A stretch of DNA of 64,000 nucleotides, taken from Meiothermus sp. Pnk-1 (GTDB lineage Bacteria; Deinococcota; Deinococci; Deinococcales; Thermaceae). A program made the position numbers and the translations under genes. This document shows positions 46,642-54,426 of the stretch, one piece after another (position 1 is the first letter of the stretch; every line of letters begins with the position of its first letter). The stretch is taken from contig NZ_QKOB01000001.1 of NCBI RefSeq assembly GCF_003226535.1, positions 62,001-126,000 on the forward strand, read 5' to 3'. The notes under the pieces are model-generated. The model made no database searches, was not told where the DNA came from, and was given only the letters and a program-made list of their open reading frames with translations.

Positions 46642-46676
46642 GCGATTGGCCTTTGGCGTATAGCGTTTGGCCTATG
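46642..46676 (+). repeat. Heptad repeat copy that supplies the hisJ start codon
   Basis: Five perfect 7-base units run without a gap. The first is GCGATTG (46642-46648), the third GCGTATA (46656-46662) and the last GCCTATG (46670-46676). The ATG in the last unit is the chosen start of the PHP-phosphatase gene. Confidence 0.75.
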
Positions 46677-47465
46677 TTCGACTCCCACCTGCACACCCCT
46701 CTTTGCCAGCACGCGGTCGGTACGCCCGCCGAGTACGTGGCAGCAGCGCGGAAAGCGGGCTTGCGAGGCATCGTGATCACCGACCACAGCCCCATGCCTC
46801 CTTGGTTCGATGCGGCATTCCGCATGCGCCTCGAGCAGTTGCCCATCTATCACGCCATGCTCGAGCAGGCCCGCGAGCAGGCGGGAGACTTCTACGTGGG
46901 GATCGGGCTCGAGGCCGACTATCATCCGGGCACCGAGGGCTTCGTGCGGCGGATGGTGGCGGGCTACCCCTACGACTACGTCATCGGCTCCGTGCACTAC
47001 ATCGGAGCCTGGCCCTTCGACAACCCGGCCTTCGCCGCCGAGTTCGACGAGCGCGAGTTGCGCGAGGTCTATCGCGAGTACTTCAGGCTGGTGGCCCAGG
47101 CCGCCCGTTCGGGGCTCTACCACAGCATCGGGCACCTCGACTTGCCCAAGAAGTTCGGGCATATCCCCGCCGAGGGCTACCTCGACTTGGCCGAGGAGGC
47201 TTTGCAGGTGATCGCAGGGGAGGGTCTGACGTTGGACGTGAACACGGCGGGCTGGCGCAAGAGGGTCGGGGAGCTTTATCCCAGCCCGGCCCTCCTCGAG
47301 CGGGCCCGGGAGCTGGGCATCCCCGTGGTGCTCGGTTCCGATGCCCATGCCCCTGGGGAGGTCGCTCACCGCTTCGCCGAGGCGGTGTCCGTGCTCAAAC
47401 AGGCCGGTTACGCCCAGGCGCTGGTGTTTCGCTCGGGAAGGCCACAGCCGTACGGGCTGGGGTAG
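46674..47465 (+). CDS. hisJ: Histidinol-phosphatase of the PHP family
   Basis: The 263-residue enzyme has the PHP metal sites DSHLHTPLC, VITDHSPMP and VIGSVHYI, and the final GSDAHAP. It removes phosphate from L-histidinol phosphate; T. thermophilus uses the same family. I chose the ATG inside the last heptad unit because the fold starts right after it. It is followed 49 bases later by a second PHP protein. Confidence 0.9.
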   Translation: MFDSHLHTPLCQHAVGTPAEYVAAARKAGLRGIVITDHSPMPPWFDAAFRMRLEQLPIYHAMLEQAREQAGDFYVGIGLEADYHPGTEGFVRRMVAGYPYDYVIGSVHYIGAWPFDNPAFAAEFDERELREVYREYFRLVAQAARSGLYHSIGHLDLPKKFGHIPAEGYLDLAEEALQVIAGEGLTLDVNTAGWRKRVGELYPSPALLERARELGIPVVLGSDAHAPGEVAHRFAEAVSVLKQAGYAQALVFRSGRPQPYGLG

Positions 47466-47490: not shown

Positions 47491-47518
47491 GCGTTTTGCC
47501 TTTACGCTATAGCCATGA
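47491..47518 (+). repeat. Heptad repeat copy ending at the PolX start codon
   Basis: Four 7-base units run from 47491, beginning GCGTTTT and GCCTTTA. The last unit contains the ATG. TACGCT (47504-47509), a possible -10 box six bases before the ATG, is made by the junction of two units. Confidence 0.65.
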
Positions 47519-49119
47519 ACCGCAAAGAGCTGGCCGGGATGCTCGAGTACGCCGCCGACTTGATGGAAGTCCTGGGTGAGGGTGAATTCCGGGCTCAGGC
47601 CTATCGCCGAGCCGCCCGCAACATCGAGCGGCTCGAGGCCGACCTCGAGGCCCTGGCCGCCCAAGGCTTCAAGGGGGTCCCCGGCGTGGGTCCGACGCTG
47701 GCTCCCCTGCTCACCGAGATCGTGCAGAGTGGAGAGTTCGCCTACATGGCCGAACTCGAGGCCCAGGTACCGCCGGGCGTGCTGGAGTTCTTCCGGGTGC
47801 AGGGGCTGGGTCCCAAGCGCATCCGGGCGCTGTGGGAGCATGGGGTGGACTCGCTCGAGGAGCTCATCCGCCACGGCGAGGCCGGACGGCTGCGGGAGAT
47901 CCCCGGCTTCGGGGCTAAAACCGAGGCCAACCTGGTCCAGGCGGCGCGCTTTGCCATCGAGGGCCTGCGCCGCGTCTTGTGGGGCGAGGCGGCCGCAGCC
48001 GCCGAGCTGCTGCTGGCCGACTTCGCCGGTGCGGGCATCCAGGCCGAGGTGGCCGGGAGCTTCCGGCGGGGCCTCGAGACCATCGGCAACCTCGACTTCG
48101 TGGCCCTGGCCCGGCCCGAAGCCGTGCAGAATGCCCTCGGGCGCCATATTGAGCGCGTTGAGGGCTCGGTGCTGCACGGTCATCTGGGGGGCCTGCCCCT
48201 CAAAGTTTTCTGCGCCGCACAGCACGACTACGGCACCGTGCTTTTGCAGGCTACGGGCTCGAGGGCCTTCGTCGAGTCGCTGGGAGAGCTTCCGGCGGGC
48301 CAAAGCGAAGCCGAGGTCTTCGAGCGGCTGGGTCGCAGGCCGCTTTCCCCTTACTGGCGCGAGCCGGAGCACCTGGGCCTGGAGGAACCCGGTCAACCTT
48401 TGCGGCGCGAGGACTTGCGGGGCCTGATCCACTGTCACTCCACCTACTCCGATGGCACCGCCAGCCTGCGGGCCATGGCCGAGGCCGCCATCGCCGAGGG
48501 CTATGCTTACATGGTCATCTCCGACCACTCCCAATCGGCCTCCTACGCGGGGGGCTTGGAGCCGCAGCGCGTGAAGGCGCAGTGGGCCGAGATCGAAAAA
48601 CTCAACGCCGAGCTGGCCCCCTTCCGCATCCTCAAGGGCATCGAGTCCGATATCCTCCCCGATGGCTCGCTGGATTACCCCGAAGAGATGCTGGCCGGCT
48701 TCGACGTGGTGATCGGCAGCCTGCACTCGGGGCTCAACCTACCCAAAGAAGAGCAAACCCAGCGCTTGCTGAGGGCGCTGGACAACCCCTACCTAAAGAT
48801 TCTCGGGCACCCCACCGGGCGGCTGCTGTTGCGGCGCAGGGGGGCCGAGGCCGACTGGGAGCGGGTGCTCGAGCGCGCCGCCGAGCGCGGGGTGATCGTC
48901 GAGATCAACTGCAACTACTACCGCTGTGACCTCGACTGGCGGCTGGTGCTGAAGTGGCGCGACCGGCTGCGCTTTTCCCTGGGGACCGACGCCCATAGCG
49001 TGGAGGGTCTACCCACCATCGCCTATGGCTTGGTCCTCGCGGCCAAGGCCGGTCTGAGTGGAAAACAGCTGGTCAATGCTTGGGCGCCTGAGCGCTGGTG
49101 TCCAGCGAAAACGACCTAA
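47515..49119 (+). CDS. PolX/PHP protein with a substituted polymerase site
   Basis: The 534-residue protein has the PolX layout: helix-hairpin-helix segments (VPGVGPTLA near 55, IPGFGAKTEANL near 130), a polymerase palm (about 150-290) and a PHP domain (from 300). The palm keeps GSFRRG (181-186), but the metal-binding GDxD is GNLD (191-194), so one catalytic Asp is Asn192. The third Asp, normally in VDLRV, is Pro228 in LPLKV. The PHP residues look intact: HCHSTYSDG, VISDHS, GIESD, GSLHSG, GHPTG and GTDAHS. Polymerase activity is unlikely; nuclease or phosphoesterase activity remains possible. Confidence 0.85.
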   Translation: MNRKELAGMLEYAADLMEVLGEGEFRAQAYRRAARNIERLEADLEALAAQGFKGVPGVGPTLAPLLTEIVQSGEFAYMAELEAQVPPGVLEFFRVQGLGPKRIRALWEHGVDSLEELIRHGEAGRLREIPGFGAKTEANLVQAARFAIEGLRRVLWGEAAAAAELLLADFAGAGIQAEVAGSFRRGLETIGNLDFVALARPEAVQNALGRHIERVEGSVLHGHLGGLPLKVFCAAQHDYGTVLLQATGSRAFVESLGELPAGQSEAEVFERLGRRPLSPYWREPEHLGLEEPGQPLRREDLRGLIHCHSTYSDGTASLRAMAEAAIAEGYAYMVISDHSQSASYAGGLEPQRVKAQWAEIEKLNAELAPFRILKGIESDILPDGSLDYPEEMLAGFDVVIGSLHSGLNLPKEEQTQRLLRALDNPYLKILGHPTGRLLLRRRGAEADWERVLERAAERGVIVEINCNYYRCDLDWRLVLKWRDRLRFSLGTDAHSVEGLPTIAYGLVLAAKAGLSGKQLVNAWAPERWCPAKTT

Positions 49120-49271: not shown

Positions 49272-49721
49272 ATGAAACGGTCTCGAGGGTTGACCCTTAT
49301 CGAGCTCTTGCTAGTTGCTGCGCTAATCGGAATAGTGCTTGGGATTACAGTGGTCTCGGGCCGCAGAATACTCGGCAACCAGCAGGCTAGCGCGAGCCTC
49401 AACTCCATACGGCAGATCGTTTGGCAAGGGGCTACCGCCGCAGCTAGCCGTGGCCAACGCCTCGATCTGGTGCTCAACGGTCAGCGTCTCCAGGTGCAGA
49501 CTCAGGAATCCACCCCCAAGGTGATCCGTTTTGTGGATCTAACCAGCAGCCTGAGCGGACAACTTCCCAGCGGAACCTGGTTTAGTTTCACACCCCCTGG
49601 CAAGGTTATCTTTCCTTCCAGCTTCAGCCAACCCATCAACGTCACGGTCAACGGGCGTTCTTACGCCCTTAGGTTTTCGCTCATTGGAGAAGTGGATGTG
49701 CAGCAGGTGGGGTCGCGATGA
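49272..49721 (+). CDS. Prepilin-like protein (GspH/FimT type)
   Basis: The 149-residue protein has the type III signal: basic leader MKRSRG, then LTLIELLLVAALIGIVLGI, with cleavage after Gly6 by the prepilin peptidase. The C-terminal part is a small beta domain. It starts a four-gene operon overlapping by ATGA. It probably corresponds to the PilA1-type minor pilin of T. thermophilus. Confidence 0.9.
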   Translation: MKRSRGLTLIELLLVAALIGIVLGITVVSGRRILGNQQASASLNSIRQIVWQGATAAASRGQRLDLVLNGQRLQVQTQESTPKVIRFVDLTSSLSGQLPSGTWFSFTPPGKVIFPSSFSQPINVTVNGRSYALRFSLIGEVDVQQVGSR

Positions 49722-50203
49722 ACAGGCGGGGATTGACGCTCATCGAGGTTATAGTGGCTCTGGCCATTCTGAGTGTGGCCTTATCGGCTTTTACCCTTCT
49801 AATCCTTGGGAGTGTACGCCAAAACGTCGAATCGGGAGGGCGCACCCAGGCGGCTCAGTTGCTGAATTATCTCGGGCGACGCCTGGTAGGGGCCGACGAC
49901 GCAGTAATGCCGGACAGCACGTCCACGTATAGAGAGTGGAACTATGGAACCCTCAGAACCAGCTTTCCTGAGTTGACCCGGGAGGGGCGCTTTGCTAACC
50001 CCGACCTGTATCGGGCAAGGATTGATAACGAAGGAACCCCTGCTTGGGCGGTGAGCGGCGGCCTGAACCTCGACAGCCTGCGGGCTTATCGCATTCAGGT
50101 GTGCTGGCGTGGCGCGCGGGGGGAGTCGTGCGTGGAAGCTCGAACCGTTGGGGCTGCTCCCGTGGCGGGCGGGGCAGCGGCACCTTTGCCTGGCATCAAC
50201 TAG
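49718..50203 (+). CDS. Prepilin-like protein (PilV/GspI type)
   Basis: The 161-residue product has the leader MNRRG, then LTLIEVIVALAILSVALSAF, with Glu5 in the mature form. Its ATG overlaps the preceding stop by four bases. By position it resembles PilA2, which is involved in DNA uptake. Confidence 0.9.
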   Translation: MNRRGLTLIEVIVALAILSVALSAFTLLILGSVRQNVESGGRTQAAQLLNYLGRRLVGADDAVMPDSTSTYREWNYGTLRTSFPELTREGRFANPDLYRARIDNEGTPAWAVSGGLNLDSLRAYRIQVCWRGARGESCVEARTVGAAPVAGGAAAPLPGIN

Positions 50204-50212
50204 GAGAAAGGC

Positions 50213-51061
50213 ATGCGCAAAGCTAGAGGCTTTACCCTAATCGAAGTCCTGATCGCGCTGGCCGTACTGATCACGGTGATGACGATTGCCTACAACGGCC
50301 TGATTCAGTCGTTGCGAACGCAGAGCGATCAGGAGGCTGTGACTAACTCTCAGGCAAAGCTGCGAAGGGTGATGGAGGTAATTACGCAGGACCTGCGCAG
50401 TGCGATCTTCGGTGGAATCATCAATCAGCCTTACACACCTACCGCTCAGGCTGTTTCCATCGGCCTAATCGACGGCGGAGCCGGGTACCCGGTCGTCAAC
50501 AAGCAGGACTACTATGCCGATATTCTATCCCCCGCCACGACAGCATCTGCATTGGGGATCAACCCTGGCGATCAGCTACTGATGGTCAACGGGGCCCAGT
50601 CCATCGTGCTGCCCGTCTCCGGCGTAGCCCAGAACGGGCAGCCCAGCCAGTGGAGGCTTTCCCACGCTACTTGCCGCAATCCGCTAGCCTTTGCCCCTAC
50701 CGGCACGCTGGTTTTCCGGATTCGAGCCATGGGAATTCGCTACGATCCTAGCCAGAATACCCTCTACACCCGCGAGGGCAGCACGGAGCAGCCCATGGCC
50801 TTTGGCATCACCAATTTCCGCATCGACTATATCTACTCGAGCTCCGGTGGCACCCTGAGGACATGGAATTTTTCCAGCGGTGCTTTCCCGGGTATGACGT
50901 TTACCGATGCGGGCACGACCTACGCCCTCCAGCGCTTGCAGGTAGTGATGGAGGCTCGGGAGAACTCGCGAGGGCGTGCCATCACCAGAACGTACACCGG
51001 CCAGGTAGAACTCCTCAACAACGGTACCTACGCCATGGGGACGGTGGTCTCATGCTCATGA
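50213..51061 (+). CDS. Prepilin-like protein (PilW/GspJ type)
   Basis: The 282-residue product has the leader MRKARG, then FTLIEVLIALAVLITVMTI and a large beta-rich domain. AGGAGAAAGG precedes the ATG. It probably corresponds to PilA3 and helps build the pilus tip. Confidence 0.9.
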   Translation: MRKARGFTLIEVLIALAVLITVMTIAYNGLIQSLRTQSDQEAVTNSQAKLRRVMEVITQDLRSAIFGGIINQPYTPTAQAVSIGLIDGGAGYPVVNKQDYYADILSPATTASALGINPGDQLLMVNGAQSIVLPVSGVAQNGQPSQWRLSHATCRNPLAFAPTGTLVFRIRAMGIRYDPSQNTLYTREGSTEQPMAFGITNFRIDYIYSSSGGTLRTWNFSSGAFPGMTFTDAGTTYALQRLQVVMEARENSRGRAITRTYTGQVELLNNGTYAMGTVVSCS

Positions 51062-52980
51062 GAAAGTCGCACGGCATCGCTCTGGTCGTCGCTCTCGTTT
51101 CGATCTTGGTCATCGGTGGGGTTTTGGCCCTGATGTTCAGCCGAATGATCGATGAGATGCGCCACAGCCGCGACGACACCGCGGTCGTTCAGACCTTGAT
51201 GTTAGCACGCGGTGGGGCCAACGTGGCTGGGGCTTTGCTTACGGGGCCCGTAAGGGATCGTTTGCGGCAGGTGGTGAACGCGACCTCGAGTACCACCAAC
51301 CGCTGGAGCTATGGGGGGAATGGCAGTGGAACCCAACCCGACCCCGCTACCGTAGCGAGCGATTTGGCAGTTGTCGCTGGGCAGCTTCAAACCCAGGTTG
51401 ACAGCTTGGTGTGCGATCTTAATCCAGCGCCCGCAGGATCCGGGGCTACTGTGCGGGTGCGGGTGTACTTCACTAATACGGCCTGTGCGGGCTCCACTAC
51501 TTACCCCAGCGGTGTGGGGTTGCCTACAGGAGTTAAACTGCCATCTGGCCGATTCGTGGATGGTTCTCCGAGGGGTGGCACCGGGGACAACAACCTTCAG
51601 CAGTACTCTCTGCCTTTTGTGATGGTTGCCGAAGCTACCCAGGGAACCTATCGGCGTAACGTTGTACTGCAAGGAGAGTATCGTTTTCCTATTGGGCGTA
51701 GCAGCTTTGCCCGCTATGCGCTGTTTACCAACGTCCATGCTTCCCGTGGCGGTGAAGACATTTGGTTCACGGATCGTACCCTCTTCGATGGCCCAGTACA
51801 CACCAACCAGTACTTCCGCTTCTACCGCAACCCCTGGTTCGGAGGCGAGGTAACCAGTGCCGGCTGCACGTCTCCGGGGGTGTCGAGTTGCAGTGGGAGC
51901 ATAACTCCTGGGGCAAGCTTCATGTCTGCCGATGGCAGAAGCCAAAATTTTATCGCTGAAAGCTCAATGTCCCCCAACGCCTCTGCCCCGACCTATAGGG
52001 GGACCCAACCGGCATTTACCGATGGTGTGAGCTGGAGGTCGAGCTTCGTAAAGCTACCGGACAACGACAATCGCCAACGTGAGGCTGCCAATGACCGGGG
52101 GCTGCTCTTCGCAAGCAACCTCTATTCCCTTGACCTATACGCGACCGACAGCAATGGTAACCTCCTGACCCGCAACGCCTCGGGGCAGTGGCAGCCTGCG
52201 GCCACCTACCAGTACATCAAGGCTTGCACCAGCTCAAGCTCGAGCAGTTGTACAGAGTATCGTTACACGGACGGTCCCAGCAAGGTTTTGTACCGCAAGA
52301 GCGGAAGCAGTTGGGTGGTGGTGCAGAACAACTTCAACGGGGTCATCTATGTCGAAGGAAGCATTGACCGGTTGCGGGGGCCCAGCCGAGTGCCTGCGAA
52401 TAGCTCTAATCCCGACAATGCTCCTCCCGCGCTAGCTCACTTCGCGGAGATCACCATAGCAGCCAGGAACGACATCCGTATCACGCGCGACCTCAAGTAC
52501 GAGAATCCGCCGTGCAGCTCGAGCCCCACTCGCAACCCGGATGGAAGCGTAACCCGCGCTACCTGTGACAACTTGGATGTCAACAACATCCTTGGGATTT
52601 ATGCTCAGGGTACCTCCTCTGACCCGGGCGACATCTTGATCGGTGGAGGGGATGCCTCCAGCGGATTACTCGCTCCTGCGAATATTGCGATTCAGGGAGT
52701 CCTCATGAGCTCTAGGGGCATTGTTGGGGTCGAGAATTACAATAGCATTTCACCTGCTGGTGACGTAAACCTACTGGGAGGGATTATCGAGTACTACTAC
52801 GGAGCTTTTGGCACCTTCAATTCCTCGACCGGAACGTTCTCTACCGGCTACGGACGCAAGTTCACCTACGACCAGCGAATGCTCAATGGTAAGGCGCCGC
52901 CCTATTTCCCCACCACCGAACTCGACGAGGTGGGTACGCCTCGAGTCATCAGCTTCGGGCAACGCGAGCAGGTCTACTGA
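51058..52980 (+). CDS. Large PilX-like pilus protein, possibly ComZ
   Basis: The 640-residue protein has one N-terminal helix (ALVVALVSILVIGGVLALMF). It has no Gly-FTLIE site and a Glu in the mature helix, as in PilX and T. thermophilus ComZ. A large beta-rich domain of the DUF4900 type follows. The ATG at 51058 overlaps the previous stop (ATGA); a second ATG two codons earlier is an alternative. Order and size match the T. thermophilus cluster pilA1-pilA2-pilA3-comZ, where ComZ sits at the pilus tip and is needed for DNA uptake. The pilA4-like major pilin is not here. Confidence 0.75.
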   Translation: MRKSHGIALVVALVSILVIGGVLALMFSRMIDEMRHSRDDTAVVQTLMLARGGANVAGALLTGPVRDRLRQVVNATSSTTNRWSYGGNGSGTQPDPATVASDLAVVAGQLQTQVDSLVCDLNPAPAGSGATVRVRVYFTNTACAGSTTYPSGVGLPTGVKLPSGRFVDGSPRGGTGDNNLQQYSLPFVMVAEATQGTYRRNVVLQGEYRFPIGRSSFARYALFTNVHASRGGEDIWFTDRTLFDGPVHTNQYFRFYRNPWFGGEVTSAGCTSPGVSSCSGSITPGASFMSADGRSQNFIAESSMSPNASAPTYRGTQPAFTDGVSWRSSFVKLPDNDNRQREAANDRGLLFASNLYSLDLYATDSNGNLLTRNASGQWQPAATYQYIKACTSSSSSSCTEYRYTDGPSKVLYRKSGSSWVVVQNNFNGVIYVEGSIDRLRGPSRVPANSSNPDNAPPALAHFAEITIAARNDIRITRDLKYENPPCSSSPTRNPDGSVTRATCDNLDVNNILGIYAQGTSSDPGDILIGGGDASSGLLAPANIAIQGVLMSSRGIVGVENYNSISPAGDVNLLGGIIEYYYGAFGTFNSSTGTFSTGYGRKFTYDQRMLNGKAPPYFPTTELDEVGTPRVISFGQREQVY

Positions 52981-53031: not shown

Positions 53032-54426
53032 TTAGCGGTTGGCGATATGGATAGCCTGCTTGTGCAGGTGCTCGGCGGCTTCCATGATCCCCTCGGAAAG
53101 GGTGGGGTGGGCGTGTACGGTGAGGGCCACGTCGGTGACGGTGGCGCCCATCTCTAAGGCCAGCGCCGCCTCGCCGATCATGTCGGAGGCGTTGGGGCCC
53201 AGGATGTGCACGCCCAGGAGCAGGTCGGTCTCGGCGTCGCCGACCAGCTTGATCAGGCCGTCGGTGGCCTCTAGGGTCATGGCGCGGCCCGAGGCGGAGA
53301 GGGGGAACTTGCCCACCTTGACCTTGTAGCCGGCCTTGGCGGCCTCCTCCTCGGTCAGGCCCACGGCGGCCCACTCGGGGGAGGTGTAGACCACGTTGGG
53401 GATGTGGTAGTCCATCACCGCGTTGCCCCCGGCGGCATTCTCGGCGGCCACCAGGCCCTCCTTCATGGCCTTGTGGGCCAAGAGGGGCGGGCGGGTCACG
53501 TCGCCGATGGCGTAGATGCCGGGCACGCCCGTCTCCATCCGCTCGTTGGTGGGGATGAAGCCGCGTTCGTCCACCCTGACGCCGATGGCCTCGAGCCCCA
53601 GCCCCTTGCCGCGCGGGCGGCGGCCGGTGGCCACCAGGATTTTATCCACCACGATCTCTTCCTGCGCCCCGCTCTTCACGTCCTCCAGCGTCACGTGCAG
53701 GCCGTCCTTCTTGCGCTCGACATTCACGCCTTTGGTGTGGGTCTTGATGGCGATGCCCTGCTTGGTGAGCACCTTGGCGAGGAGGCCCGCGGTCTCGGGG
53801 TCGGCGGCGGGCAGGATCTGGCCCATGAACTCGATCACCGTGACCTCGGCGCCCATGCGCTTGTAGACCTGGGCAAACTCGAGGCCGATCGCCCCGCCCC
53901 CGATGCACAGCAGGCGCTTGGGGAAGTTGTCCTCCACCCGCAGCGCGCCCGTAGAGTCGATGATCTCCTTCTGATCTACCTCGAAGCCGGGCAGGGTGTT
54001 GGGCTCGCTTCCGGTGGCGATGATGAAGGTTTTGCCCTCGATGCGCTCCCCGCCGACTTCGATGGTCTTGGGACCGACGAACTTGGCGAAGCCGGTCTTG
54101 AGCTCGACCTTGTTGCCCTTGAAAAGCTGCGAGACCCCGCCGGTGAGCCGCTTGACGATGCCGTCGCGCCAGCTTCCCAGCTTCTTGAGGTCCATCCTGG
54201 CGTCTTTGACCTCGAGCCCGAAGCTCGCGCCGTGCTTGACGCCTTCGAATTCCTCGGCCGCGTGCAGCAGGGCCTTGGTGGGGATGCACCCCACGTTGAG
54301 GCAGACTCCGCCCACGTACTCCGCCTCCACCGCCAGTACCTTCTTGCCCAGTTGCGCCGCCCGGATCGCTGCGTGGTAGCCGCCGGGGCCGGTGCCGATG
54401 ACGATGACATCGTAGATGGTTGACAT
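53032..54426 (-). CDS. lpdA: Dihydrolipoyl dehydrogenase (E3)
   Basis: The 464-residue FAD enzyme has [17 protein letters not shown], the redox pair in [16 protein letters not shown], the NAD motif [13 protein letters not shown] and the C-terminal HAHPTLSEG with the catalytic His and Glu. It reoxidises the lipoyl group of the E2 encoded upstream. An S23-type gene and two heptad repeats lie between it and the E2 gene. Confidence 0.97.

Follow-up and report, generated by a model that had tools for sequence, protein, structure and literature searches.

The noncanonical polX gene and its neighbours

The window, which is the whole 64,000-nt stretch of DNA that we analysed, belongs to contig NZ_QKOB01000001.1 of Meiothermus sp. 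Pnk-1, and all positions follow its numbering. A noncanonical polX gene occupies positions 47515–49119 of the plus strand; the ORF, its coordinates and its start had been given correctly in a preliminary description of this DNA. The product of this ORF, a protein of 534 amino acids, is referred to here as Pnk-1 PolX. Directly upstream on the plus strand, at 46653–47465, lies a HisJ-family (histidinol-phosphatase) PHP gene, which matches PRK07328 with 390.9 bits (cut-off 202). A HisJ-family gene adjoins the noncanonical polX on its upstream side in 29 of 30 Thermales loci, and the two genes are possibly cotranscribed. In Thermus-like genomes the HisJ-family gene is located elsewhere.

The domains of Pnk-1 PolX are arranged in the order HhH/lyase, thumb, palm, fingers and PHP, all encoded on the plus strand. 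An N-terminal 8-kDa (lyase-type) domain and the thumb make up residues 1–150 (47515–47964), followed by a degenerate palm (residues 174–244; 48034–48246), truncated fingers (residues 245–264; 48247–48306) and a PHP nuclease domain (residues 303–511; 48421–49047). These assignments are based on alignment and, except for the fingers, on Pfam models. HHH_8 (residues 1–74), HHH_5 (93–145) and PHP (306–465) scored above their Pfam cut-offs, while the palm and thumb models reached only 16.3 and 11.8 bits, respectively, against a cut-off of 25 each. The top NCBIfam match was PolX PRK08609, whose score of 347.8 bits falls under its cut-off of 426. An AlphaFold model of the protein has a mean pLDDT of 92.6 and a pTM of 0.80. 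By sequence, the closest solved structures are Deinococcus radiodurans PolX 2W9M (38% identity in the Foldseek comparison) and Thermus thermophilus PolX 3AU2 (35%), and the same two proteins are closest by fold.

The polymerase site

The catalytic triad was mapped by a MAFFT alignment with PolX of T. thermophilus (Tth), D. radiodurans and other members of the class. As a control, this alignment reads the D. radiodurans triad as AEE, in agreement with the structure-curated triad of PMC9226535. A second mapping, by profile–profile alignment of the Thermales noncanonical against the canonical PolX proteins, paired identical triad residues. The first catalytic aspartate (Tth Asp198) aligns with Asn192 (codon AAC, 48088–48090, plus strand), as the preliminary description had proposed. 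The second (Tth Asp200) is retained as Asp194 (48094–48096, plus strand), which is invariant in all 32 Thermales noncanonical proteins. The third (Tth Asp243) corresponds to Lys230 (codon AAA, 48202–48204, plus strand) in both alignments, and Lys or Arg stands here in each of the 32 proteins. The earlier placement of this third position on Pro228 was wrong, that residue being the counterpart of Tth Gln241. Consequently, the statement that the polymerase carboxylates have been lost holds for two of the three, which are now Asn192 and Lys230, but not for Asp194. The alignment with the T. thermophilus and D. radiodurans proteins gives N-D-K where a canonical PolX has three catalytic acids, the arrangement that had been named in advance as evidence against the loss of the site. 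The strand that bore the third aspartate is now without any acidic residue.

The palm is short, as had been noted from the sequence: between GSxRR and the YLTG position T. thermophilus PolX has 70 residues and Pnk-1 PolX 63. For the fingers segment the lengths are 37 and 18 residues, respectively; the boundaries of both segments are our own definition and are not equated with the thresholds of <77 and <55 used in PMC9226535. The dNTP pocket is altered at Tth Tyr258, the steric-gate residue, which is replaced by Gln245, and at Tth Ser266, replaced by Val253. Within the fingers the GS motif is kept and the Lys263 position is occupied by Arg. The GSxRRxxET-G frame is kept as well. The sequence features of noncanonical PolX, namely a substituted triad, deletions in palm and fingers and changes of dNTP residues, are each present in Pnk-1 PolX.

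The PHP nuclease site and the lyase position

All nine ligands of the PHP metal site (HHHEHHEDH) are present: H306, H308, H338, E377, H404, H432, E463, D492 and H494. The alignment therefore confirms the earlier description of the PHP motifs as complete. A basic DNA path, mapped from work on Bacillus subtilis PolX, is conserved as R436, R441, N465 and R470. The position of B. subtilis Phe440 is occupied by Leu407, and Leu is common here in the clade of Pnk-1 PolX. Since the nuclease activity of B. subtilis PolX was strongly reduced by the F440A change (PMC6616362), Leu407 counts against a nuclease reading. In the 8-kDa domain, Leu65 stands at the position of Pol beta Lys72 (Tth Lys68), and the protein thus departs from the sequence of a Pol beta-type dRP lyase. 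This suggests that lyase activity may have been lost, although another Lys could stand in. Canonical PolX of Thermaceae has Lys at this position, but canonical proteins of Deinococcaceae often have another residue, and the change is therefore linked to clade.

Comparison with known PolX proteins

The noncanonical PolXs were established as a group by Prostova et al. (2022, PMC9226535), the defining features being substituted triads, deletions in palm and fingers and intact PHP domains. In that study the noncanonical proteins of D. radiodurans and Deinococcus gobiensis were polymerase-inactive, Mn2+-dependent 3′-5′ exonucleases, and the Meiothermus silvanus protein was modelled (PMC9226535). In agreement with this, a 2026 survey found higher conservation at the PHP site of PolX than at the polymerase site (PMC12926913). 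The class of proteins that lost the polymerase and kept the nuclease is thus published already, and Pnk-1 PolX adds a member to a known group. We found no published assay of any Thermales noncanonical PolX in the literature.

Pnk-1 PolX belongs to the same clade as the ‘double-truncated’ M. silvanus protein (PMC9226535), and both have an altered triad, a palm and fingers that are shortened, and a complete PHP site. It shares with D. radiodurans PolX, which is polymerase-inactive, an altered triad and an intact HHHEHHEDH site. The triads differ, however, and the D. radiodurans fingers are untruncated at 36 residues, double the length found here. 2W9M ranks first among PDB entries in sequence similarity and in fold E-value, but the Pnk-1 model as a whole superposes poorly on it (rmsd ∼15 Å) and does not reproduce its extended domain arrangement. 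The best overall superposition was obtained with the T. thermophilus DNA complex 3AU6 (TM 0.79/0.75, rmsd 5.9). The T. thermophilus protein (3AU2, 3AU6, 3AUO) has the same five-domain order, but it carries a canonical DDD triad and full palm and fingers, and its first PHP ligand is Gln instead of His.

Distribution and origin of the gene

No second PolX was found in the Pnk-1 genome (99.95% complete) with Pnk-1 PolX, the NCBIfam model or a canonical protein as query. This search had been proposed with the preliminary description, whose label of paralogue does not apply within a genome with a sole PolX. Some relatives do carry a second, complete PolX. Among genera g1–g3, which include Calidithermus and Meiothermus, a noncanonical polX is present in 21 of 22 genomes, and eight of these (G023, G025, G028, G034, G037, G038, G040 and G042) carry a canonical polX together with it. 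In the 28 genomes of the Thermus-like genera g4–g5, canonical polX was the only kind found.

In the tree, Pnk-1 PolX groups with D. radiodurans PolX, and the DDD canonical proteins lie across a branch with 100/100 support, indicating that the two kinds are old, separate lineages. All Thermales noncanonical proteins form one 100/100 clade, within which Pnk-1 PolX joins the proteins of C. roseus and C. chliarophilus, again at 100/100. The tree was built under LG+G4 with no mixture model and carries a long-branch warning, so the order of its deep clades is uncertain. Two proteins of the larger noncanonical clade carry acidic residues at all three triad positions (DEE and DDE).

The RpoB of Pnk-1 is 97% identical to that of genome G023, which we take to be Meiothermus (Allomeiothermus) silvanus, and 88–89% identical to that of Calidithermus. 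In contrast, Pnk-1 PolX is 91% and 85% identical to the proteins of two Calidithermus and 67% identical to that of G023. The G023 protein has Arg at the third triad position, where Pnk-1 PolX has Lys, and G023 possesses a canonical PolX that Pnk-1 lacks. Downstream of the Pnk-1 gene, positions 49272–52980 hold a gene for a DUF4900 protein and three genes whose products have prepilin-type methylation motifs at the N terminus. This prepilin-like block lies beside polX in C. chliarophilus as well; at the corresponding loci of G023 and C. roseus it was not found. At the G023 locus a pyridine nucleotide-disulphide oxidoreductase gene directly follows polX, and its Pnk-1 counterpart is at 53032–54426. 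The segment 47515–52980, comprising polX and the next block, is Calidithermus-like, whereas RpoB and the genes from ∼56.4 kb onwards are closest to G023. Because RpoB is nearest to G023 while PolX is nearest to Calidithermus and the prepilin-like block is shared with C. chliarophilus, the simplest reading is that Calidithermus-like donor DNA would have replaced the local polX, by recombination or horizontal replacement.

Several irregular genes were seen in other genomes. One genome, G013, encodes a canonical PolX (L090 / L100, G013:C76) with a DDD triad whose PHP site is destroyed (KFRERREGK versus QHHEHHEDH). The palm of this protein is 85–91% identical to its kin and the PHP domain 60–64%, the PHP domains of those kin being 87–90% alike. 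The same genome also encodes a noncanonical PolX (L036, G013:C79) with the triad GDK and an intact PHP site. The pair is an apparent natural division of labour, with a loss that is the mirror image of the noncanonical one. In two Thermus-like genomes the canonical polX is seemingly broken (G062:C4:304628-306345 and G060:C1:896673-898387), one having two in-frame stops and one a split reading frame, although errors of sequencing could account for this. In C. chliarophilus an ORF (G024:C5:123966-124388) resembles only residues 3–143 (lyase/thumb) of canonical PolX.

Constraint on the domains and the altered site

We compared mean protein distances among noncanonical proteins with those among canonical proteins, using matched species pairs from seven genomes that have both kinds of PolX (21 pairs, which are non-independent). 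The ratio was 1.77 for the palm and 3.30 for the fingers, compared with 0.89 for the lyase/thumb part and 0.95 for PHP. Between Pnk-1 polX and its C. roseus homologue, dN/dS per domain was 0.06–0.10. From the matched ratios and dN/dS, selection maintains both ends of the protein and is relaxed on the catalytic core. The low dN/dS also rules out a pseudogene.

The altered site itself is frozen in Thermales, where the triad follows the pattern (N/S/G)-D-(K/R) in 32 of 32 noncanonical proteins, Pnk-1 PolX included. Both GAC and GAT encode the second position, and six codons encode the basic third position. Arg184, Arg185 and Gly248 are invariant among the same proteins. By comparison, 19 other Deinococci of the larger clade vary widely at the triad positions, and noncanonical triads in general were reported to be highly varied after inactivation, with 302 variants (Prostova et al. 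2022, PMC9226535). That the Asp/basic pair stays fixed in Thermales suggests that these residues may have a structural or DNA-binding use. The divergence of palm and fingers relative to the N-terminal and PHP parts, and the frozen Thermales site, are new in this analysis, as are the apparent acquisition of the gene from a Calidithermus-like donor and the reciprocal loss in G013. Four noncanonical proteins of family f3 (L038, L039, L040 and L068) have the triads DDQ or DDS, in which only the third Asp is missing, and are possible intermediates of triad loss.

Function of Pnk-1 PolX

We consider it very probable that the Pnk-1 protein is a noncanonical PolX that has lost DNA synthesis and acts as a PHP-dependent, Mn2+ 3′-5′ exonuclease. 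The preliminary description had likewise suggested a polymerase turned nuclease, and alignment, substitution rates, phylogeny and the biochemistry of homologues (PMC9226535) all support this reading. The PHP domain would function as a metal-dependent (Mn2+) 3′-5′ exonuclease and probably also as an AP endonuclease and a 3′-end-cleaning phosphodiesterase. The half of the protein made up of the HhH/8-kDa domain and the thumb probably binds DNA that is nicked, gapped or broken, while the PHP domain would trim damaged 3′ ends, leaving other polymerases and ligases to complete repair. Its most likely role would be to process 3′ ends during the repair of single- or double-strand breaks.

The preliminary description had also proposed that binding may be the sole use left to the former polymerase part. 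This is plausible and fits the conserved HhH/thumb half. The fast evolution of palm and fingers suggests that, apart from a small set of frozen residues, little of the catalytic core may be needed. The invariance of Asp194 and GSxRR counts against a wholly dead site, in which neither would be needed. A possible refinement of the nuclease reading, rather than an alternative to it, is that the palm has been rebuilt, with a salt bridge between Asp194 and Lys/Arg230, or a phosphate-binding patch formed with Arg184/Arg185, taking the place of the metal ions and positioning DNA ends for the PHP domain. We hold this only tentatively. The retention of the second Asp and of a basic third residue in every Thermales protein, each through several codons, argues for it, as do the invariance of Arg184, Arg185 and Gly248 and the many different triads of other Deinococci. 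Against it, palm and fingers as a whole show 1.8 and 3.3 times the divergence seen in canonical PolX, and canonical PolX shares most of the invariant palm residues, which may be structural.

The preserved GSxRRxxET-G frame, Asp194 and GS motif could instead point to a residual or unusual polymerase or nucleotidyltransferase activity that uses Asp194 and a displaced acidic residue. We regard this as very unlikely, since two of the three metal ligands are gone and one is now basic, the protein lacks both the steric gate and the base-contact residues, deletion has removed about half of the fingers segment and the homologues assayed are inactive (PMC9226535). Equally improbable is a small-molecule phosphoesterase of the histidinol-phosphate type with the polymerase part as a relic, for which the nearly constant adjacency of a HisJ-family phosphatase gene could be cited. 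The PHP domain is of the PolX type, as judged from PRK08609 as best match and from the nearest solved structures; R436, R441, N465, R470 and the HhH domains are conserved, and the neighbouring gene already supplies a separate HisJ-like protein. A sequencing, assembly or frameshift artefact that mimics catalytic loss has a negligible probability, given that the ORF is uninterrupted, that dN/dS is low and that 31 other genomes show this pattern; a triad pattern shared by all 32 proteins excludes chance or sequencing error.

A broader scenario, which we consider somewhat unlikely, is that Thermales divided the functions of PolX between a canonical polymerase and a nuclease whose palm was rebuilt as an Asp194/basic-230 site for DNA ends. 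Later lineages would then have dropped one of the two, Thermus keeping the polymerase and Pnk-1 the nuclease alone. In one genome, the polymerase of the pair would in turn have lost its PHP site. The frozen altered site and the reciprocal loss are the parts most deserving of a test. The role of the dead polymerase part could be tested directly with a canonical and a noncanonical PolX taken as a thermostable pair from a single species. Pnk-1 PolX adds a thermophile to the known polymerases turned nucleases, and the evolutionary picture of noncanonical PolX is sharpened by the matched-species rates, the frozen site of one order and the reciprocal loss in one genome.

Repair partners

Ku is absent from the 50 genomes of the family, and the ATP-dependent ligase domain PF01068 of a LigD-type partner was not found in the Pnk-1 genome. 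These results rule out a Ku/LigD end-joining partner for Pnk-1 PolX. Since noncanonical PolX persists without Ku, it cannot act in Ku-dependent end joining as a general rule. SbcD is encoded in the Pnk-1 genome, which fits the link between D. radiodurans PolX and SbcCD (PMC9226535).
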